Shown one piece after another: positions 51,020-60,581 of a stretch of 60,581 nucleotides of DNA. Both the position numbers and the translations under genes were made by a program. The notes beneath the pieces are model-generated. The model searched no databases. It worked only from the letters and a program-made list of their open reading frames with translations, and was not told where the DNA came from. This DNA is from Synechococcus sp. AG-679-B05 (GTDB taxonomy: Bacteria > Cyanobacteriota > Cyanobacteriia > PCC-6307 > Cyanobiaceae), in assembly GCA_003210795.1 (NCBI GenBank), contig QCUJ01000006.1, forward strand, positions 1-60,581, written 5' to 3'. The first letter of the stretch is position 1. The number at the start of each line of letters is the position of its first letter.

Positions 51020-52066
51020 ATGCCGCGTGGTCTTCGTTCGTGGTTGCTGCTCGTTGTCCTTGGCATGGCTTTGACCGTAGGGCTGGGGTCATGGGTTTCA
51101 GCAGATCCCTCGGTGATCCAGCCTCCATCGGGACCCACATCCCAGAAGATCGACTGGGGAACCTTTGAGCAAGGCCCAACGCAGCCGACCCTGCCTGGAT
51201 TGCGGGTGGGTGCCTACATCACGAACTTCAGCGACATCAATCTTCTCGATGATGAGTTCTCGATTGAATTGCTGCTCTGGACCCTCTGGAAGGGCGACCC
51301 AGACCTGAATCCAAGTGACCAACTTCGGATTCTGAATGGCATTTATGACGGAGATGTGCAGCGGTTTGAGCGGGTGCGACGGGATGTCGTGGATGGTGCC
51401 AGCTGGAGTCTTTACAAGGTGCGTTCAGCGGTGGTGAAGCGATGGAGGTTGCAGCGTTACCCCTTTGATGATCAGCTTCTCCGTGTACAGGTCGGCCTGG
51501 ATGATCCTTTTCAGCCCGTCAATCTGGACGTGGTGCCCAAGGATCCCCTGACGGTGACCCCCAGCCTGTTGCTTCCAGGCTGGGATCTGAAGGAACCGCA
51601 GGCCTATGCATCCACGGTCACGCTGATGAATGACCTGGGGCGTCCCACTGCTCCGGGTATCTCTGTTCGGCGTCAGCCAACGGTGTCTTTTGATGTGCCG
51701 ATTCAACGCCGCAGCTTGTTGTTTGTGGCTCCAGATTTCCTTGGTTACATGTTGGCCGTGGGGCTCTGCTGCATGAGCCTGCTGATCACCCGCAGCCGCG
51801 ATGATTTGATTCTGGCCGCGGTGGTGTCCGCCGGCGGAAACTATGTGTTTATCGCGGGTCAGCTGCCCGTCACAGCGATGACCGGTTTCATCGGACATCT
51901 TCAGCTGATTATTTTTCTTGGGATTCTCTATGTGGTTGCCGCTGATGAATTGATTGATCATCAGCTCAGCCATCTCAGTGCACGTTTTGCGCAATGGTTG
52001 CGTGTCCTGTTATTACCCAGCTACGTAGGAATGACGCTTTTCGGGATCTGGTGGATCATTCCGTGA
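51020..52066 (+). CDS. Pentameric ligand-gated ion channel homologue
   Basis: 348 residues. A signal peptide is followed by an extracellular beta-sandwich: LRVGAYITNFSDINLLDDEF resembles the first strands of Cys-loop receptors, and YPFDDQ (147-152) the conserved FPFDxQ of the Pro-loop. Four helices follow: LLFVAPDFLGYMLAVGLCCM, DLILAAVVSAGGNYVFIAG, GFIGHLQLIIFLGILYVVAA and LRVLLLPSYVGMTLFGIWW. There is no disulfide Cys pair, as in GLIC/ELIC-type bacterial channels. It overlaps a binding-protein-like gene. Ligand unknown. Confidence 0.78.
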   Translation: MPRGLRSWLLLVVLGMALTVGLGSWVSADPSVIQPPSGPTSQKIDWGTFEQGPTQPTLPGLRVGAYITNFSDINLLDDEFSIELLLWTLWKGDPDLNPSDQLRILNGIYDGDVQRFERVRRDVVDGASWSLYKVRSAVVKRWRLQRYPFDDQLLRVQVGLDDPFQPVNLDVVPKDPLTVTPSLLLPGWDLKEPQAYASTVTLMNDLGRPTAPGISVRRQPTVSFDVPIQRRSLLFVAPDFLGYMLAVGLCCMSLLITRSRDDLILAAVVSAGGNYVFIAGQLPVTAMTGFIGHLQLIIFLGILYVVAADELIDHQLSHLSARFAQWLRVLLLPSYVGMTLFGIWWIIP

Positions 52067-53157
52067 GCACAGATCAGGCACAAACTCCTGAGTCAGACTC
52101 TCAGCCAATATCGGCTGCTGTGACCCTCGTCTCAACGGTCATCACCTTGATGACGATGTCGTTGGGTGCATTGTTAATCCAGCCAAGACTGGTGGAACGA
52201 CGTGCTTTGGTCGACGACCAGCATATCCTCACCCTCGCTGAGGTGAAGGCCCTGCCGGAAGGGGTTCTGGCTGTGGTGTTGGATCGCTCGCCGGGTCAGG
52301 ATCAGTCCGATTTTCGATACCAGCTGCTCAAGCTCGTCATGGAGCGCAGTGGCAGGCCCTACGCGCTTGGCTTGAGTGAACAGACGATCTCTCAAGACGA
52401 GGCGATTGCTGCTCTGGATCAACCCAGTTGGAACCAGGGTCGTAATCCGTTGGCCATCAGCGTTGGGCTTTATGGAGCAGGCTTGGAGCTCAACCGTCGT
52501 CTTCAGCCTGTTCCGATCCCTGTGACGGGAGGCATCCTCGGCTTGAGAGCGGGTTGGACCCATCGCGATGGTGTGGAGCGTATGGCTTCAGTTCGGAGCC
52601 TGAATGATCTGCGCGACATCGTTCTGCTCCAGGGGCTGGGATGGAGTGATGTGGATATTTTTGATGCCTCCGGCATGCGCACGTTCACCGCACGATCGGA
52701 TGACCTGTTTCGGTTGGTGGACCACCGCCGCGTGCAGTTGTTTCCCCGTGGAATTGCCGAACTCGAGCGCGATGCTGTGATTGTGCGGGACACAGCAACT
52801 TCAACCCAGCTGGATCCACATCTGTTAATTGCTTATCCCTTTGCCGGATTCTTTTACGTCAGCCGATCCAATCCAGCGCTTGCCGATGCGATTCAACTGG
52901 GTTTTTCGCGAGCCATTGACGATGGTTCGTATCAGATGTTGTTGGAACGTCTCATCCTCACGCCATGGTTGCGCCGGCATCTTCAGCTGGCGAATCGGTC
53001 GGTGGTGGTTCTTCCCAACCCGGTGGCTGCATCCGTCTTGGCTGATGTCGATCCAACACATTGGATCGTCCCCTGGGGTGACCTGCTGCAGGGAACAATC
53101 TCTTCTGGGTCTCAACTTTGTGAAACCCCTTCGCTGCGTGTGCTCTGCGAGGGATAA
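52063..53157 (+). CDS. Membrane-anchored solute-binding-like protein
   Basis: 364 residues from GTG 52063, overlapping the channel gene by GTGA. One N-terminal helix (ISAAVTLVSTVITLMTMSLG) anchors a periplasmic part resembling family 3 (amino-acid type) binding proteins: GVLAVVLDRSPGQDQSDFRY, VRSLNDLRDIVLLQGLGWSD, LFRLVDHRRVQLFPRGIAEL and ADAIQLGFSRAIDDGSYQML. No ABC permease or ATPase is nearby. The overlap with a ligand-gated channel suggests it captures or presents the ligand. Function is inferred. Confidence 0.75.
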   Translation: MSTDQAQTPESDSQPISAAVTLVSTVITLMTMSLGALLIQPRLVERRALVDDQHILTLAEVKALPEGVLAVVLDRSPGQDQSDFRYQLLKLVMERSGRPYALGLSEQTISQDEAIAALDQPSWNQGRNPLAISVGLYGAGLELNRRLQPVPIPVTGGILGLRAGWTHRDGVERMASVRSLNDLRDIVLLQGLGWSDVDIFDASGMRTFTARSDDLFRLVDHRRVQLFPRGIAELERDAVIVRDTATSTQLDPHLLIAYPFAGFFYVSRSNPALADAIQLGFSRAIDDGSYQMLLERLILTPWLRRHLQLANRSVVVLPNPVAASVLADVDPTHWIVPWGDLLQGTISSGSQLCETPSLRVLCEG

Positions 53158-53222
53158 ACAACATGCTTTCAGCCAGGGAGTGGACTTTTGCTCTCACCCC
53201 CTGTTCGCTTGCGCTCTCTCGG

Positions 53223-53558
53223 TTACCAGTTAGCGAAGCCTCCCCGGTAGCGGGCATTGGCAAATCCGCCGCCGCCATTGCCCCAGGCACCGCCACGGGC
53301 GTTACCGAATACACCGCCGCCACCGCCTCCATTGGCCCAGCCACGTCCGCGGCCGTTGCCCCAGGCAGCGATGTCCGGGTGTTCGTTCGATGTTTGCTTG
53401 AGCAGGGGAGACCACCTGTCGTTGCTGCGGGCTGCTGCAATGCGCTGTTCGATGCTGTTGTCAGCCTTCTCATAGGTGTAGGCCCCTGCTGCAGTGGCGC
53501 CAACACTGCTCCAGGTGCTGAGCAGAACCAGTGTTCCAAAGAGGGTGGTGGGTTTCAT
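53223..53558 (-). CDS. grrA: GrrA-like Gly-rich ribosomal-peptide precursor
   Basis: 111 residues. A signal peptide (MKPTTLFGTLVLLSTWSSVG) is followed by a leader-like helix (SIEQRIAAARSNDRWSPLLK) and a Gly/Asn/aromatic core of 47 residues. The core holds six aromatic-X-Asn triplets: W66-N68, W74-N76, F84-N86, W92-N94, F99-N101 and F108-N110. This is the pattern of GRRM-system GrrA peptides, on which a radical SAM maturase (GrrM) makes three-residue cyclophanes. No grrM is next to it. It lies 39 bases downstream of grrP on the same strand. Confidence 0.82.
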   Translation of the reverse strand: MKPTTLFGTLVLLSTWSSVGATAAGAYTYEKADNSIEQRIAAARSNDRWSPLLKQTSNEHPDIAAWGNGRGRGWANGGGGGGVFGNARGGAWGNGGGGFANARYRGGFANW

Positions 53559-53597
53559 GGGTTGCGATCAGAAAGTGTTTTGGGTCTTGCAGGAAAA

Positions 53598-54506
53598 TCA
53601 GTCGGGTTGGGTTTGGGTATCGATCCCCGTCACGGTTGACAGCACAGCGTTGTAGTAGGTGGCAATGGTCTCCGTCGACAGGCCCACAGCACTCTCAGGA
53701 CCGATCCAGCGGTTGATTCGGTTGGTGCTGGTGTCGTCTCCGTCGATGTAGTTCTGCAGCAGCTGGGCGATGGCCACATTGGCCTTGGCCAGCAGCGCCT
53801 GGTTCTCAGAGGCGACGACGCAGGCAACGGCTGAGCGGCCGTAGGGACGTTCCGGCACGGCCTTGCTTCCGGGGACCGCACCGGCATTGGCCTTGGCCCA
53901 TAGGGCCCCACTGGCGATGGCGTCCACGCTGCCCTGCTTGAGGGCATCCAGGGCAGCCTCTGGAGAGTCGAATTGCTCCAGCTCGGTTTCAGGCAACTGC
54001 TTGGCCACCACGTCAGCTGGGACGGAGTCCTTGACCACGCCGATGCTCGTTCCTTTGAGCGCCTCAGGTGTTCCATCGTTGTCGCCGGTGGTGAGCAGTC
54101 GGACCCCTCCAACGGCGAAAGGCAGGGAGTAGCTCAGTTGCTCGGCCCGCTCCCAACTGAAGCTCACCCCGCAGGCGATGTTCGCGGAACCATCTTTGAG
54201 GGCTTCACCAGCGGCTTTGATGCTGGTGACATCAATGATTTCAGGCGCGGCATCACCACCGAGTTCAGCCTGGATCACACCCAGGACCTCATGGGCCAGT
54301 CCTTCCCACTCCTGCTCGTTTTGGGAGCTGTAGGGCAGGGCATCGCTCAAGGCCACGGCCTTGAGCTTGGTGATCGGTTCTGGGGTGGGGGCAGGCGCTT
54401 CAGCCTCTGACGTTGAGGCCGTTGAGCTCGTCTGTGGCGTCGAACAGGCGGTTAGGGCTGTGAGTGCCAGGAGGAGAGCAGAGCAGCGAAGAAGCATCAG
54501 TCGCAT
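53598..54506 (-). CDS. grrP: GrrP-like lipoprotein, orphan substrate-binding protein
   Basis: 302 residues. A lipobox (ALTALTAC, lipidated Cys21) anchors a Thr/Ser/Pro linker and a family 3 binding-protein fold (SANIACGVSFSWERAEQLSY; GTPEALKGTSIGVVKDSVPA; ALDALKQGSVDAIASGALWA). It fits the extracellular substrate-binding-like orphan protein of the GRRM cluster and has no ABC partner here. Four copies of an 8-bp repeat lie just upstream of its start. Confidence 0.82.
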   Translation of the reverse strand: MRLMLLRCSALLLALTALTACSTPQTSSTASTSEAEAPAPTPEPITKLKAVALSDALPYSSQNEQEWEGLAHEVLGVIQAELGGDAAPEIIDVTSIKAAGEALKDGSANIACGVSFSWERAEQLSYSLPFAVGGVRLLTTGDNDGTPEALKGTSIGVVKDSVPADVVAKQLPETELEQFDSPEAALDALKQGSVDAIASGALWAKANAGAVPGSKAVPERPYGRSAVACVVASENQALLAKANVAIAQLLQNYIDGDDTSTNRINRWIGPESAVGLSTETIATYYNAVLSTVTGIDTQTQPD

Positions 54507-54516
54507 CGAGCAGCTG

Positions 54517-54547
54517 AATTGCTTAATTGCTTAATTGCTTAATTGCT
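54517..54547. repeat. Four-copy 8-bp tandem repeat upstream of grrP
   Basis: AATTGCTT repeated almost four times at 54517-54547, ending 11 bases from the grrP ATG (54506). Copy-number change would alter spacing in the 5' leader. Confidence 0.9.
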
Positions 54548-54703
54548 GAAGTAGTAGCCACGTTGCAGCCGAATGCGTCTGTTTTGGGAAGCACGCAGCT
54601 GGGGCAGCCGTCCAAGGTGCCAATGCACAAGCCAGTCCACCATCAGCTCGGCAACAAGAGCACAAACATCTTGGTGTCGTGGGTCATGGTTCAGATCGCT
54701 TTG

Positions 54704-54847
54704 TCAGCAAAAGGCTCGTTGTGTCATCGACTCCCAGTGACTGAGGCGTTTCACTTGAAAATCAATCAATGAACTCGCAACTTTCACAATGGAAGCGTCT
54801 GAAATGGTTTCGTCTTCAGGAATCCAATGGCCATAATGATGCGCCAT
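54704..54847 (-). CDS. Possible 47-residue protein
   Basis: From ATG 54847: MAHHYGHWIPEDETISDASI then VKVASSLIDFQVKRLSHWES. The composition looks coding, unlike the frame upstream. No family or Shine-Dalgarno recognised. Confidence 0.4.
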   Translation of the reverse strand: MAHHYGHWIPEDETISDASIVKVASSLIDFQVKRLSHWESMTQRAFC

Positions 54848-55280
54848 GAGATGTGGGCCATCGTTACTATTTTCGGCATGTGTTGCAGGGATTATTTTGC
54901 GGTTGATGTGATCAACAATATTCAGGGCAGATGCTTGGCTCGCGGTGCTCTCAACGCGAATCACATGGCTTCGTTGCAGGGTGTTCCCCAAGGCGACATC
55001 TTGCACTGATGGTCATTCATGAAAAATCAGACATTGCCTATCCCCGCAGTGCTTTCGATGACGTCGAATCAGTCGTGATATCGCATGGCTGATTCCTGGT
55101 TTTCTCTGAAGATGAATGATCCAAGATAGGCAGGTGATACTTGACTGAGGATGCTGGTGCAGCGACGCAGGACATGATTTCATTTCTGTTGTGTTGACTT
55201 GGTATTACAAAAAAGAACCATTCGTAATCTCACGCCGAGATTATTTCTGATACATATTCATGACTTTTGAGCGGAAAGTC
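54848..55280. other. Gap with no visible gene
   Basis: AT-rich. Probably carries the promoter of the membrane-protein gene at 55281. Nothing else supported. Confidence 0.35.
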
Positions 55281-55505
55281 ATGAGCGAACTGGGGCCAAT
55301 GGACGATGAAGCTGTCGCCAGGTCCGTCATGTATCTGGCCGGGGCAGTCCTCTTGATCGCTGTTTTTGCGGTTGTCGGTCTATTGCTCAATGCGGAGCTT
55401 GGTGAGCAAGCGAAGCTCAAAGCACAAGCTGAGCAGTCCGTTGTGGTTCAAACCACTTCTCCGCTCACTTCAACAGGTTGGTTCTGGCGGCGCCATAACG
55501 GGTGA
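55281..55505 (+). CDS. Small membrane protein
   Basis: 74 residues from ATG 55281 (MSELGPMDDEAVARSVMYLA); an ATG at 55260 is also in frame. One membrane helix (AGAVLLIAVFAVVGLLLNAE) with a Gln/Thr-rich tail ending TGWFWRRHNG. Function unknown. Confidence 0.6.
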   Translation: MSELGPMDDEAVARSVMYLAGAVLLIAVFAVVGLLLNAELGEQAKLKAQAEQSVVVQTTSPLTSTGWFWRRHNG

Positions 55506-55579
55506 GTGAAAGGCCAATGCTTTTCTTTATGGATTTTGATGAAGGAATCAAGCAGGCTTAGATGACCGAATAAAAGTGG

Positions 55580-55628
55580 AGGGGATAGCGAAGTTGGTAG
55601 CTCGCTGCACTTTTCACACAAGGGTTTT
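55580..55628 (+). other. tRNA D-arm-like element before a terminator
   Basis: A segment around 55585-55607 folds like a tRNA D-arm (AGCGA/TCGCT around AGTTGGTAGC), but there is no matching acceptor or T-arm. It is directly followed by a terminator. It may be a decayed tRNA or a small RNA. Confidence 0.3.
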
Positions 55629-55629
55629 G

Positions 55630-55660
55630 GCGGGCACCCAGTTTGGGCGTCCGCTTTTTA
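55630..55660 (+). terminator. Terminator
   Basis: Ten-pair stem with one mismatch (GCGGGCACCC at 55630-55639 with GGGCGTCCGC at 55645-55654) followed by TTTTTATTT. It ends the transcript that includes the D-arm-like element and perhaps the membrane protein at 55281. Confidence 0.75.
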
Positions 55661-55782
55661 TTTGCTTTCCTCAGAGTATTTAGTTGTGTTGCGTTAGTCG
55701 AAAAAACACTAGGTCATTAAGCTTATTTCATGAACTTCCGTAAAGACGACGTGTGATAATGGCCAGATCGCAATACTCCTAA

Positions 55783-55944
55783 ATGCTGAGTCTTCAGATT
55801 CCCTTTAGATTGTTTGGAGCGTTGATTCTGGGCTCTGCCCTTTTTCCAATGGCACAATCAGCCAAAGACGCTGCTCTCTTGGGAGGAGCATTTTTAGTCG
55901 GACTGGGCGCAATCGAAATTGTCTTGAGGTTTGGGGGCCTCTAG
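55783..55944 (+). CDS. 53-residue membrane protein
   Basis: ATG 55783: MLSLQIPFRLFGALILGSAL, then FPMAQSAKDAALLGGAFLVG and GLGAIEIVLRFGGL. Two hydrophobic segments flank a polar loop. A terminator follows 30 bases after the TAG, which supports a real short transcript. Family unknown. Confidence 0.5.
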   Translation: MLSLQIPFRLFGALILGSALFPMAQSAKDAALLGGAFLVGLGAIEIVLRFGGL

Positions 55945-55975
55945 ATCATCAAATCGTTTGAGGGAACCCTGCCCT

Positions 55976-55999
55976 GGCCCTGATTGCTGGGGCTTTTTT
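55976..55999 (+). terminator. Terminator after the 53-residue ORF
   Basis: A short stem (GCCC/GGGC, nine-base loop) followed by seven T. Confidence 0.5.
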
Positions 56000-56014
56000 A
56001 TGGGCTGTACCCAC

Positions 56015-56040
56015 AAAAAACCGCCCTCGAACGAGCGGTT
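56015..56040 (-). terminator. Minus-strand terminator
   Basis: Stem ACCGC/GCGGT region with inner CTCG/CGAG pairing and a six-base T run on the minus strand. It implies a minus-strand transcript through 56.05-56.5 kb, perhaps from the small-protein gene starting at 56662. Confidence 0.55.
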
Positions 56041-56152
56041 TCATGATGCCGACTAATCCCCATCACCCGGCCACAATCACTACATAGAGTCGTGATTTTC
56101 AAATAGTACATCAATCACCGCACATGTGGTGCTTGTCTGCTGATTAGCTTTC

Positions 56153-56233
56153 GTGAAGGCTGAAGAAATCTTTGCCGTTTTAACCAGCATCAAGCGGAAC
56201 CCTGTCCATAGCGTCGAAATGGCTATAAGGTGA
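56153..56233 (+). CDS. Possible 26-residue peptide
   Basis: GTG 56153: (M)KAEEIFAVLTSIKRNPVHS then VEMAIR. Its stop lies 17 bases before a perfect terminator, so a plus-strand transcript exists here; the peptide itself is uncertain and the region could be a small RNA. Confidence 0.3.
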   Translation: MKAEEIFAVLTSIKRNPVHSVEMAIR

Positions 56234-56250
56234 GTTCCCCCATCACCCGG

Positions 56251-56276
56251 CCTGTCGCTTGCGACAGGTTTTTTTA
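56251..56276 (+). terminator. Strong terminator
   Basis: Perfect 8-bp stem CCTGTCGC (56251-56258) with GCGACAGG (56261-56268), then seven T. Confidence 0.85.
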
Positions 56277-56503
56277 TTTCCAAACGCTACCGCTAGGGCT
56301 TGTGGCTCAGAAAAAATAATCCCCACTTTTAGGGGGCGAGGGACGTTTTTTCAAAAATCGAACTGATGGGTTGTTGACTCAGGCGTCGGTCGCTTCTGCC
56401 AGCCATTTCCAATGAACTGATGGGGGGTCTGGTTTGATTCCAACGACTCCAGATAACTCCGGAGGTGGATTGATGGAGCGGTTTTGATCGGAACGGCTTT
56501 GTA

Positions 56504-56662
56504 TCAAACCGAATCAGGCATCAGTTGGGAAATCTCCGGCATCGGGTCTGGTTTTCCCTCGGCAATGGCCTTGGCACGCTTGTAAAACCAGCTCTCGGTG
56601 GTGCCATTGGCTTCCATCTTTTCGGCGATGGATTTCCAGTTGTTGAGTTCGGCTTGATCCAT
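56504..56662 (-). CDS. Small protein, paralogue of the one at 30085-30255
   Basis: 52 residues from ATG 56662 (MDQAELNNWKSIAEKMEANG), chosen by alignment with the paralogue; an ATG at 56716 would add 18 residues. Shares IAEKMEANGTTESWFYKRAK and GKPDPMP with it. Helical, soluble, no Cys. Its role is unknown; both copies are in small-protein-rich islands. Confidence 0.7.
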   Translation of the reverse strand: MDQAELNNWKSIAEKMEANGTTESWFYKRAKAIAEGKPDPMPEISQLMPDSV

Positions 56663-56847
56663 GGGAATAACGCGTTGCGTCAATGCTGCTGAACGATCCT
56701 TACCTTCGCTATTCATTCAGGTTGTGATAACCGTCACCGCGATCAATCGCGATGAGATCAGCGCATGCCCAATGATCAGATGGATGCCGACAAGACAGAC
56801 ACTTCTGTCTTTTCAGGCAACGATTGCCTAGTTTTAAAGGTTTTGAG

Positions 56848-57147
56848 ATGGCGCGTTTCATGATCCATTGGTGTGCTCCCGATCCCACCAGTCAGGAGTA
56901 CACCGAGGCCATCGTGAATTACATCAAGGGCGGCAAGTCCATGGATGAATTTGCCGGTTTCGCAGTGCTGGCGCGTCAGATCCACCCTCAGACCGGTGGT
57001 GGCGTGCTGCTGGTGGAAGCCGACAACCTGGCGGCTGTGCAGAAGCACACTTATCCCTGGACCAAGGGGCTGGGCGTCACGGCAACGATTACCCCCGGCC
57101 TCAGCGATGAAGAGTCTGTCGAGCTGGAAGAGAGCATGACCAGCTAA
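56848..57147 (+). CDS. DUF3303-like small protein
   Basis: 99 residues from ATG 56848 (MARFMIHWCAPDPTSQEYTE). An alpha/beta dimeric fold is likely (GVLLVEADNLAAVQKHTYPW; GVTATITPGLSDEESVELEE). The family is found in cyanobacteria and others and is uncharacterised. Confidence 0.78.
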   Translation: MARFMIHWCAPDPTSQEYTEAIVNYIKGGKSMDEFAGFAVLARQIHPQTGGGVLLVEADNLAAVQKHTYPWTKGLGVTATITPGLSDEESVELEESMTS

Positions 57148-57219
57148 CTATTTGCAATCATTTGGCTCCGATCGTCTCGAGTCCCATCCCTCAACCTCCT
57201 GGTGCTTCCAGTTGCAGCA

Positions 57220-57826
57220 TCAATTGCAGGCCTGCACCGAGATCCTGTAACTGAAACCGGTGCCTCCGCGGTCCTTGTTGGCTCCGATTTTGAAATTCAC
57301 CTGGTTCACAACCTTGCCAGCAGGAGAGGTGAACGGCCCAAATTGTGCCCCGGTGCCCGTCGGAGGTTTCATGGACTGATCCACAACTTTCATGTTGCTG
57401 CCATCAGCAAACTTGAGATAAGCCTCGATCGGGTAAGACCCCGGCGTGCCTTCCGTGGAATCGGCGGTGAAAAAGAGCTTGAAGCGATTGCTGGGTTGAT
57501 CGACCACGAAATCGGTGTTCCAGTTGGTGCGCCCAATGGCATTGCCGATTGGTGCGCCCAATGGCATTGCCGATCAGACCCTTGGGGCGTTGAACCTGCT
57601 TTTTGACGATATGAAGGGCGGGACCATTCCCGTTGCCTCCAACAGGCATGAGGAAGTTGCTGCGTTCTGCGGCGGCTGGCGTTGGCATGGCCAGGCCTGA
57701 GAGCACAACACCGAGAGACGTCAGGGCGATCCGGTTTTGGCCAATCCAAGTGGTCTGTTCATCTGTGATTCCGAGTTGGAAAGAGGCTTGGATCTGAGTC
57801 CTAATCATCAGGACTGATTGCGCCAA
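57220..57826 (-). pseudogene. Secreted protein gene interrupted by a 25-bp tandem duplication
   Basis: The 5' frame (from 57826) has a hydrophobic export segment (IALTSLGVVLSGLAMPTPAA) and then ERSNFLMPVGGNGNGPALHI, VKKQVQRPKGLIGNAIGRTN. There it enters a second copy of a 25-bp unit and is pushed out of frame. The 3' frame picks up at IGNAIGRTNWNTDFVVDQPS, then FKLFFTADSTEGTPGSYPIE and QVNFKIGANKDRGGTGFSYR to the stop at 57220. Removing one unit restores a single protein of about 190 residues. Function unknown; the C-terminal part looks beta-rich. Confidence 0.7.
57525..57574. repeat. Exact 25-bp tandem duplication
   Basis: Unit 57525-57549 is repeated identically at 57550-57574 (it begins TGGTGCGCCCAATGG). 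As 25 is not a multiple of three, it shifts the reading frame of the minus-strand gene. Confidence 0.97.
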
Positions 57827-58163
57827 CTCTTTTCCTCAGCACTCTTTGACGTCGGTATGGTCTGACTTATTCAGCACTTCTGGCAAGTGCCTTCGGAGTC
57901 CTGGGACAATCAATCGCCTGGAGGCATCCTCCATCGGCCAGGGGGTGCCATTTCACCGGTCAAATGGGCAGGGTGTTTTTGAACAGCTGATCGTTTTCGA
58001 TTTGCCGCTTGTCGCTATTGATCCCGATAAGACTTCACACCAATGTCGCCACAAATGGAGCGAATCGACCTGGCATTCATGTGCAGTTCACACGAGCGAA
58101 TGTAGTGGTTGATTAGTTCCAGTTACAGCGAAGTACTCTTGCTGCAACTTGGTTTTGCTAATA
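57827..58163. other. Gap with no visible gene
   Basis: No convincing frame, hairpin or RNA was seen on either strand. Confidence 0.4.
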
Positions 58164-58236
58164 AGCCGATGACCTGACTTGAACAGGCGACCCACGCTTT
58201 ACGAAAGCGTTGCTCTACCGGCTGAGCTACATCGGC
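58164..58236 (-). tRNA. tRNA-Thr (anticodon CGT)
   Basis: A complete cloverleaf on the minus strand: acceptor GCCGATG/CATCGGC, D-arm GCTC/GAGC, anticodon stem ACGCT/AGCGT around TTCGTAA, T-arm CCTG/CAGG around TTCAAGT. Anticodon CGU reads ACG threonine codons. The CCA is not encoded. Confidence 0.95.
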
Positions 58237-58547: not shown

Positions 58548-59426
58548 GGCCTGCTCCTCCAACGATGCATCGTTGAGCACCGTTACGTCCTCTTCAGTCA
58601 AGTCCTCTTCAGTCAAGTCCTCTTCAGTCAAGTCCTCTTCAGTCAGGTCCTCTCCCATCACGTCTCGCGTCCCTTCCTCAGACGCCGGTGCGTCGGGGTC
58701 GGGATCTTCTCCACTTGTTGCGTCCGTTTCTTCCGCCTTGTTCTCGGGATTGACTGCCTCATTTGCAGGTATGCCCTCAGGCTCTGGAGTTGGTTCAGGT
58801 TCTGGAGTTGGTGTCGTCTCTTCGTTTGAACTGGATTCTGGCCAGTTCAGGAGCGGGATCCGGAGCAATGGAAGTCCGAAATTGCTGCGTTCGTTCTTGA
58901 GCCGTTGAGAATCCCATGGCTCCGTTGACTCGTCGCTTCGAGCCCCACCGCTGAGCAGCTGTATCGCCTGAACCAATTGCTGCCCTTGCCAAACCACCAA
59001 TGCAAGCAGTGGTGTGCTGAGCAGCAGGGTCACCAATCGCGATCTGTGCTGCACGGGCGACAGTTCCTGCACCAATCCGGCCGATTCATCCAGCCACCAG
59101 ATCAGGGGCAGCATCCCAACCGTGATCACGACAAGGACGACCTTGTTGATCAGCCCCCCTTGATGACTGCTGAGTTGCTCTTGCTGCTTGGTGCGTGTTT
59201 CCGTTGGGATACGAAGCAGGAGCACCGACCCCCAGTCCGCTGGGCGTCTCCACAGAGCAACTGCCGGAGCGAGTACGGCAACCGCCCAGAGCAGCAGCCG
59301 CTCCAGCAATGGCACTGGCCCTGGATCCGCACCCGCCAGCAACACCCTGATCAGCAGCAATTCCAGTGGAATTACGCCGATTGCGAGGCACTGAAGCCAG
59401 AGCAGAGGCTCGCGGCGGGGCTGCAC
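58344..59426 (-). CDS. Membrane protein with low-complexity acidic tail
   Basis: 360 residues. The N-terminal half has four or five hydrophobic helices (LLWLQCLAIGVIPLELLLIR; LLWAVAVLAPAVALW; VVLVVITVGMLPLIWWL; LVTLLLSTPLLALVVWQG). The C-terminal 180 residues are acidic and repetitive, including four copies of DLTEE encoded by 15-bp repeats. The last 68 codons lie opposite the DUF3493 gene. The tail may have arisen by extension into the neighbour. Its role is unknown. Confidence 0.8.
   Translation of the reverse strand: MQPRREPLLWLQCLAIGVIPLELLLIRVLLAGADPGPVPLLERLLLWAVAVLAPAVALWRRPADWGSVLLLRIPTETRTKQQEQLSSHQGGLINKVVLVVITVGMLPLIWWLDESAGLVQELSPVQHRSRLVTLLLSTPLLALVVWQGQQLVQAIQLLSGGARSDESTEPWDSQRLKNERSNFGLPLLRIPLLNWPESSSNEETTPTPEPEPTPEPEGIPANEAVNPENKAEETDATSGEDPDPDAPASEEGTRDVMGEDLTEEDLTEEDLTEEDLTEEDVTVLNDASLEEQASITSTAAIAVEPEQRGKDQESTSLDAEVVEGDAVAGGEAEQHGEQPETSGGEESDPNQTTESTPGGL
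58587..58653. repeat. 15-bp tandem repeat in the acidic tail
   Basis: GTCCTCTTCAGTCAA occurs four times (58587-58646, the last with one change) and a partial fifth, encoding (E)DLTE repeats on the minus strand. Confidence 0.95.
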
Positions 59427-59440
59427 GGTGACAGGTGGAA

Positions 59441-60581
59441 TCAGGTGGTGAGTTTGCGGCGCTGAGTGACCATCTTGAAGGCTTCAATCCGGTCGCCTTC
59501 CTCCCAGTTGGCGAAACGATCGGTGCCGACACCGCACTCGAAGCCGGTGGCAACCTCCTTGACGTCGTCTTTGTTGCGACGCAAGGAGTCGAGATCGCCT
59601 GCGAACACAACCTGCTTGCCGCGATGAACGCGGACCTTGCAGTTGCGATGCAGTTTGCCTGTGGTGATGTAGCAACCAGCCACAGCGCTTTTGCCAATGG
59701 TGAACACGGCTCGCACCTCGGCTTCGCCGAGAGCCTCCTCCACCAGCTCGGGTTCAAGCAGCCCTTCCATGGCCAGCTGGATGTCTTCGAGCAGTTTGTA
59801 GATGACGTCGTAGTCGCGCACATCCACGCCGGTGGCATCAGCGGCTTTCTTGGCACCGGAAGCCATCGAGGTGTTGAAGCCCACGATCACCGCACCGGAT
59901 GCGGCAGCCAGGTCCACATCTGTTTCCGTGATCTCACCCGGCGCTGACAACAGCACCCGCACCTGGACTTCATCCTTTGGCAGCTGTTCGAGCGAACCGA
60001 GGATGGCTTCCACGGAACCCTGCACATCGGCTTTGAGAATCAGGTTGAGTTCCTTCAGCTCACCTTCATTGGCCTGGCCGGACATGGCGGTCAGCGACAC
60101 CCGTCGTGATGCCATCTGCTGGGCCAGGCGTGTGGCGCGGGCATCGGAGGCCCGGTCGCCCACCACCGCTCGCGCCGATCTCTCATCGGCATAGACCTCG
60201 AATTCATCGCCCGCCGTTGGTACTTCACTGAAGCCGAGGGCTTCTACAGCGTAGGAAGGGCCTGCTTCCTTCAACCGCTGACGGTTGTCGTCGACCATGG
60301 CGCGCACCTTGCCGAGCACCGGACCAGCGGCGAGAACATCGCCGGTTCTGAGGGTGCCGTTCTGGATCAGCAGCGTAGCCACAGGGCCTTTGGCCTTGTC
60401 GAGATGAGCCTCGATCACGGTGCCGCGAGCCATGCGATCGGGGTTGGCCTGCAGGTCTTCCACCTCAGTAACCAGCAGAAGCATCTCGAGCAATTTGTCG
60501 ATGTTTTCTCTCTTGATGGCACTCACCGGCACCATCACCACATCGCCCCCCCAGTCTTCCGCCAGCAGGCTCTGCTCGGAG
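59441..60581 (-). CDS. infB: Translation initiation factor IF-2, C-terminal part
   Basis: The frame is open to the right edge, so the N-terminus and most of the GTPase domain are outside. What is seen: [20 protein letters not shown] (end of the G domain), [20 protein letters not shown] (domain 2), [20 protein letters not shown] (domain 3) and [20 protein letters not shown] (domain 4, which binds the initiator fMet-tRNA). The stop at 59441 is 15 bases from the low-complexity-tail gene on the same strand. Confidence 0.95.

Follow-up and report, generated by a model that had tools for sequence, protein, structure and literature searches.

A conserved channel and binding-protein pair

A homologue of the pentameric ligand-gated ion channels (pLGICs), bacterial kin of human nerve-receptor channels, and a type II periplasmic-binding (PBP-II) protein, encoded side by side in Synechococcus sp. 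AG-679-B05 and hereafter called CHAN and PART, make up a two-gene unit, for which pairing across genomes, predicted folds, conservation and joint decay are shown. The window in which they lie comprises contig C6 from end to end (60581 bases; genome of 1.88 Mb, 109 contigs, 77% complete) and also holds grrP and grrA, two genes of a GRR system, the latter encoding a Gly-rich precursor of a ribosomally synthesized and post-translationally modified peptide (RiPP). All four genes are where a preliminary description of this DNA had placed them, CHAN and PART on the forward and grrA and grrP on the reverse strand (Table 1). That description had grouped them into one peptide-sensing system devoid of its maturase; we regard it as probable that the window holds two independent things, namely the CHAN-PART unit and a satellite grrP-grrA cassette whose maturase gene (grrM) falls in an assembly gap.

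The pairing was counted in a family sample of 201 genomes, in a genus sample of 34 genomes (21 of them channel-bearing; fragments and incomplete genomes included) and in a scan of named genomes. CHAN had matches in 19 family genomes, 14 being close homologues and five weak ones (L015-L019; E 1e-5 to 1e-10) that were excluded from the pair counts. Each of the 14 close homologues was accompanied by PART, which was present in 16 of the 201 genomes, the remaining two holding decayed copies. At all 28 whole-genome loci of the family and genus searches PART stood directly downstream of CHAN on the same strand (at one of them, L229, both genes are in pieces), and 20 of the 21 CHAN loci from named genomes had PART directly after CHAN, the exception (L158) ending at a contig edge just past CHAN; these two locus sets overlap and share several genomes. 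Strains with the pair include Synechococcus sp. UW105, UW140 and Cyanobium sp. FACHB-13342, and the named loci extend to four metagenome-assembled genomes (MAGs) of Myxococcota and one of Halioglobus, at identities of 38-40% for CHAN and 33-35% for PART. The other window genes near PART change from locus to locus; CHAN stays. A PART search in 188 genomes of the phylum of locus L162 gave three matches, each in a genome already present in the named scan, and the pair looks rare in that phylum.

When compared with three relatives (locus L146 in AG-673-B04, genome G201; L147 in AG-679-D13, G202; L148 in G203), the ratios of nonsynonymous to synonymous substitution rates (dN/dS) were 0.14-0.29 for CHAN and 0.15-0.19 for PART. 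Where the pair decays, both genes are affected: G174 has no CHAN match and an interrupted PART, G131 retains a PART remnant and no CHAN, and at L156 both genes are split.

Passages of Tasneem et al. (Genome Biol. 2004/05, PMC549065) describe a pLGIC gene next to a stand-alone PBP-II gene and propose that the two products cooperate as a chemoreceptor, and the alignment presented there includes a Synechococcus sp. sequence (legend of figure 1). CHAN and PART, likewise adjacent and conserved genes for a pLGIC and a separate PBP-II protein, resemble this ART-LGIC and PBP-II neighbourhood. The kind of pair is already known. What we add to those passages is a measure of how strong and widespread the pairing is, with counts from many genomes across several phyla, and a partner that is anchored and cysteine-paired, PART having a hydrophobic N-terminal helix and a C-terminus with a conserved cysteine pair. 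Among the matches listed by our literature search, which covers subscription journals poorly, there was no other relevant paper on a pLGIC with a binding-protein neighbour. One binding partner kept from picocyanobacteria to Myxococcota offers a defined pair on which the cooperation proposal of 2004/05 can be tested.

Predicted structure of the channel and its partner

The fold comparison with GLIC that the preliminary description had suggested upholds its naming of CHAN as a pentameric channel homologue: the predicted model has a pLGIC-like fold, with GLIC (the proton-gated pLGIC of Gloeobacter violaceus) closest, an extracellular beta domain, four transmembrane helices and a hydrophobic helix at the N-terminus. 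The Pro-loop reads YPFD (residues 147-150), and its P148 and D150, together with the basic R230 before M1, are invariant across 21 CHAN sequences. By sequence, CHAN had no Pfam match (single-sequence search), reached E 0.013 against NCBIfam LGIC_1 (far below the cut-off of 500 bits) and E 0.26 against GLIC (beneath an ATP-synthase entry at 0.021), and Neur_chan_LBD was touched by only one of the 21 CHAN relatives (E 0.01). Curated models miss distant pLGIC members and the fold comparison is the stronger test here; by its predicted fold CHAN is a pLGIC, which would presumably assemble as a homopentamer. It differs from GLIC in being paired with PART, in sequence (14-16% identity in structural alignments) and at the start of M2, where the profile alignment puts three extra GLIC residues.

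PART had been described as binding-like and membrane-anchored, and its predicted model agrees, showing a two-lobed PBP-II fold (nearest to amino-acid and opine solute-binding proteins, SBPs) and an N-terminal hydrophobic helix. The overlap between the two genes was confirmed as well (Table 1), and a longer, ATG-started form of the PART open reading frame (ORF), from 51994, is likewise open. The C-terminal extension, some 30-60 residues long, carries two cysteines conserved in all 20 aligned members. Single-sequence searches of Pfam, NCBIfam and PDB gave no match for PART, alignments and folds alone being informative, and the Pfam SBP_bac_3 cut-off is not passed (no match for the window protein; eight of 20 members at E up to 1, best 0.002). 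On its modelled structure we assign PART to the PBP-II fold class and not to the Pfam SBP_bac_3 family. The hydrophobic helix and the cysteine pair suggest export, the charge pattern being ambiguous. A homology between PART and GrrP closer than their common fold class was considered and rejected, as hhalign found no clear profile similarity between them (probability 0.9%, E 0.065).

The SBP family 3/PBP-II proteins YtmK, LAO, SocA, NocT and the GluR0 core have the same fold as PART (6-17% identity in the listed matches), which would suit an ordinary SBP of an ATP-binding cassette importer that lies beside the channel by chance. We deem this unlikely: PART departs from these proteins in the N-terminal hydrophobic helix and in its C-terminal extension, whose cysteine pair is fixed in 20 of 20 members, and the channel is its constant neighbour across very distant bacteria, whereas other nearby window genes vary.

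A satellite grrP-grrA cassette

The identity given to grrP and grrA in the preliminary description holds, both exceeding the NCBIfam cut-offs (TIGR04262, E 3.6e-83, and TIGR04260, E 9.3e-18, respectively). Copies in G202, G203 and G197 share 77-98% identity with the two genes: the pair on another contig of G197 is 77% (GrrP) and 81% (GrrA) identical, and G203 holds the same satellite away from the channel (84% and 87%), as does G413 (GrrP 86%). Identities to the second pair of G147 are 51% and 69%, and those to the GrrP of pairs adjoining grrM (hereafter canonical) about 38-43%. The similarity between satellites ceases at the gene ends, i.e. at the grrA stop on one side and some 25 bases ahead of the grrP start on the other, so that the cassette measures ~1.3 kb, and no flanking ORF (>=80 aa, in the stretches compared) is common to the satellite sites of the window, G203, G197 and G413. 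The more distant satellite copies of G147 and G411 sit at a common site.

The four-gene arrangement is limited to the window, L146 and L147, that is, to three of the 21 channel-bearing genomes of the genus, and these two relatives are very close (95-97% identical; in G202 95% for the channel and 97% for PART). The interval between PART and tRNA-Thr is about 5 kb here with the cassette (53157-58164) and about 5 kb without it in G147 and G089; measured to tRNA-Thr or o122, it is 155-210 bases in G162, G112 and L148 (185 in L148, whose channel ranks next in identity to that of the window). Judging from these comparisons, grrP-grrA is most likely a satellite copy of the GRR cyclophane-peptide system that arrived between PART and tRNA-Thr in this lineage. 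A tRNA-driven integration of the cassette was considered and is not shown: no duplicate of tRNA-Thr (exact match of at least 10 bases) occurs within 53101-58163. Promoter-like and terminator-like sites between 50700 and 55300 were close to the numbers in shuffled sequences (2 vs 1.7 and 6 vs 4.6) and were left unused.

Several observations concern the satellite itself. An 8-base tandem repeat, GCTTAATT (x4.4, 54513-54547), lies immediately 5' of the grrP start; the array is shorter in L147, none was seen in the G203, G197 and G413 copies, and it may possibly act as a variable-length control of the satellite. The grrA of AG-673-B04 (L146, 8205-8459) lacks, in frame, 26 repeat-core residues that the window gene has. 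The GrrA cores of satellites at different loci in four genomes (window 53226-53558, L126, L132 and L181) are near-identical, and their leaders and GrrP diverge more; satellite GrrA is possibly a fixed second peptide with a conserved target. Related grrA genes in G004 and G061 had no grrP found beside them.

The maturase and a probable assembly gap

The preliminary description was correct in that no grrM lies within the window; its further statement that the locus lacks its maturase most likely reflects the assembly. The genome search that it called for returned no match to TIGR04261 (GrrM) in the 109 contigs of the 77% complete assembly, and the expected site falls between contigs C6 and C82. 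Because the genome is incomplete and the window is one whole contig, absence from the window does not imply absence from the organism.

The canonical grr locus is situated on the far side of infB in G162, G147, G197, G089, G061 and G203. In G203 its grrM-grrA-grrP begin about 4.7 kb past the point at which the window ends, and in G202 at a similar distance. G202 contains both versions, the satellite on C29, next to the channel, and the canonical grrP-grrA-grrM on C9, which runs through infB by alignment to G203. Over its full length, contig C82 of AG-679-B05 (4130 bases, complete) matches C9 of G202 at 97%, stopping 2.6 kb before grrP; what is missing between C6 and C82 corresponds to about 9.8 kb in G203, and in both relatives this stretch carries grrM-grrA-grrP. 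Since C6 and C82 flank a stretch that carries grrM in two relatives, the grrM of this strain most likely resides in the ~10-kb assembly gap between them.

Among the 77 family genomes with GrrA, a GrrM match, full or partial, exists in 76 (over the cut-off in 75; G103 has only a sub-cut-off piece), and the window genome alone has none. No GrrM match was obtained from AG-673-B04, an assembly judged 53% complete from its twin entry G418. That grrA could be a true orphan, its canonical locus lost and its precursor unmodified or a relic, would agree with the fruitless search of the 109 contigs; we hold this to be very improbable in view of the incomplete genome, the contigs that flank the grrM-bearing stretch of the relatives, the GrrM matches of the other 76 GrrA genomes and the state of grrA and grrP, both intact with dN/dS of 0.10-0.19.

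That the canonical locus supplies the GrrM which modifies satellite GrrA in trans seems likeliest, because the six W/F-x-N motifs of this GrrA are kept and its leader resembles the canonical one (S-I/L-E-x-R-I, by eye). OscB is described in passages of PMC11002830 as cross-linking motifs of the W/F-x-N class, and the window motifs fit the cross-links given there. The window grrA and grrP pass the curated cut-offs of the GRR/OscA-type triceptides (TIGR04260/04261/04262); the satellite is unlike these in having no adjoining maturase and a core that is nearly the same in several species, where it occupies different loci. Among the papers listed by our literature search, none was seen to deal with GRR systems in Synechococcus, a weak negative given the poor coverage of subscription journals.

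Relation of the pair to the grr genes

The adjacency of the four genes, at a variable spot of a fragmented genome, hinted at a four-gene system with a missing enzyme, which the relatives do not bear out. In the preliminary description CHAN, PART, GrrP and GrrA would make up one peptide-sensing system in which a modified Gly-rich peptide gates the channel, and all four are indeed neighbours, and intact, in this genome and two close relatives (grrA being shortened in L146), under purifying selection. Direct adjacency, nonetheless, is confined to a single lineage (the three genomes noted above), so that the neighbourhood, whose conservation in relatives had been put forward as the gauge of the proposal, is nearly, not literally, unconserved. 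Channel and GrrP do not co-occur significantly in the genus (17 genomes with both, four with the channel only, eight with GrrP only, five with neither; Fisher p 0.25). Throughout the family sample, 66 of the 77 genomes with GrrM over the cut-off have no channel, and the pair is found without a GrrM match in the complete genome G112, in G158, in the four Myxococcota genomes and in the Halioglobus one. Moreover, the channel and grrM are 0.95-1.36 Mb apart in all four genomes measured outside the genus. Of the ligand-gated system proposed earlier, the channel and its partner thus stand as likely, on their folds and adjacency, and neither the membership of grrP-grrA nor a peptide-sensing link between it and the pair is supported.

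Several points weigh against the separation into two independent things, or limit it. In the family sample CHAN is found with GrrM more often than in random draws (11 of 14 genomes with CHAN vs 66 of 187 without, p 0.0027, with no correction for kinship or genome size). The channel and the canonical grrM are 9-20 kb apart, around infB, in five of the nine measured genomes (those of this genus), and in G407, G408, G409, G411, G413, G421 and G429 the contig that bears the channel also has a GrrP match, at a distance of 11-14 kb. With the canonical grr locus near the channel in these twelve genus genomes, the odds of a single peptide-sensing system rise slightly, from very slender to hardly less so. 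The five weak pLGIC loci have no PART match within their 3.1-3.6 kb, and therefore the pairing with PART is a trait of the CHAN subfamily and not of pLGICs at large. The charges around the PART helix (no K/R in the N-flank and three in the C-flank of the window protein) leave its topology unsettled, and the case for the gap draws on conserved gene order in relatives and not on sequencing reads. We read the pair and the canonical grr locus as two residents of one region, co-inherited within the genus; in this best explanation, the position of grrP-grrA next to the channel is incidental.

Proposed mode of action

Most bacterial pLGICs have, to our knowledge, no known natural ligand. As regards the ligand, the contact between PART and CHAN, the gating role and the ion selectivity, we infer that PART, most likely tethered in the membrane, would catch a small ligand on the outer side of the inner membrane and then either pass it to the extracellular domain of CHAN or contact that domain and so control gating. 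At the predicted inner mouth of M2 CHAN has acidic residues, which in that position favour cations, and its opening would therefore let cations in. The satellite GrrA precursor, independently, would be modified in trans by the canonical GrrM beyond infB. More tentatively, CHAN and PART may constitute an obligate two-chain receptor, i.e. a pLGIC that does not sense its physiological ligand alone, its gating being left to a tethered type II binding protein; we lean against this stricter version while giving it appreciable weight. If true, such a receptor would parallel the glutamate-receptor channels, with clamp and pore supplied by separate genes and the pore belonging to the Cys-loop class.

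Other features of the contig

Table 1. Positions of the genes and elements discussed, in window coordinates
Feature	Position	Strand	Description
CHAN	51020..52066	+	Pentameric ligand-gated ion channel homologue, 348 aa, ATG start
PART	52063..53157	+	Type II periplasmic-binding (SBP family 3-like) protein, 364 aa, GTG start
CHAN/PART overlap	52063..52066	+	Stop/start overlap of 4 bases (GTGA), identical in L146, L147 and L148
Satellite grrA	53223..53558	-	Gly-rich RiPP precursor, 111 aa, six [WF]-x-N motifs (by TIGR04260 and motifs)
Satellite grrP	53598..54506	-	SBP-3-like protein, 302 aa (by TIGR04262 and SBP_bac_3)
Satellite grrP-grrA cassette	53216..54531	-	Extent, set where similarity to copies at other sites ends
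tRNA-Thr(CGT)	58164..58236	-	
infB	59441..60581	-	C-terminal fragment at contig end

The o115 gene (57220-57826), near tRNA-Thr in the window, directly follows grrM in several relatives. A perfect 25-base x2 tandem duplication (57524-57574) lies in the 5' portion of its ORF, where the frame appears to shift. A near-perfect 15-base x4.5 repeat (58587-58653) is situated within a 360-aa ORF adjoining infB.

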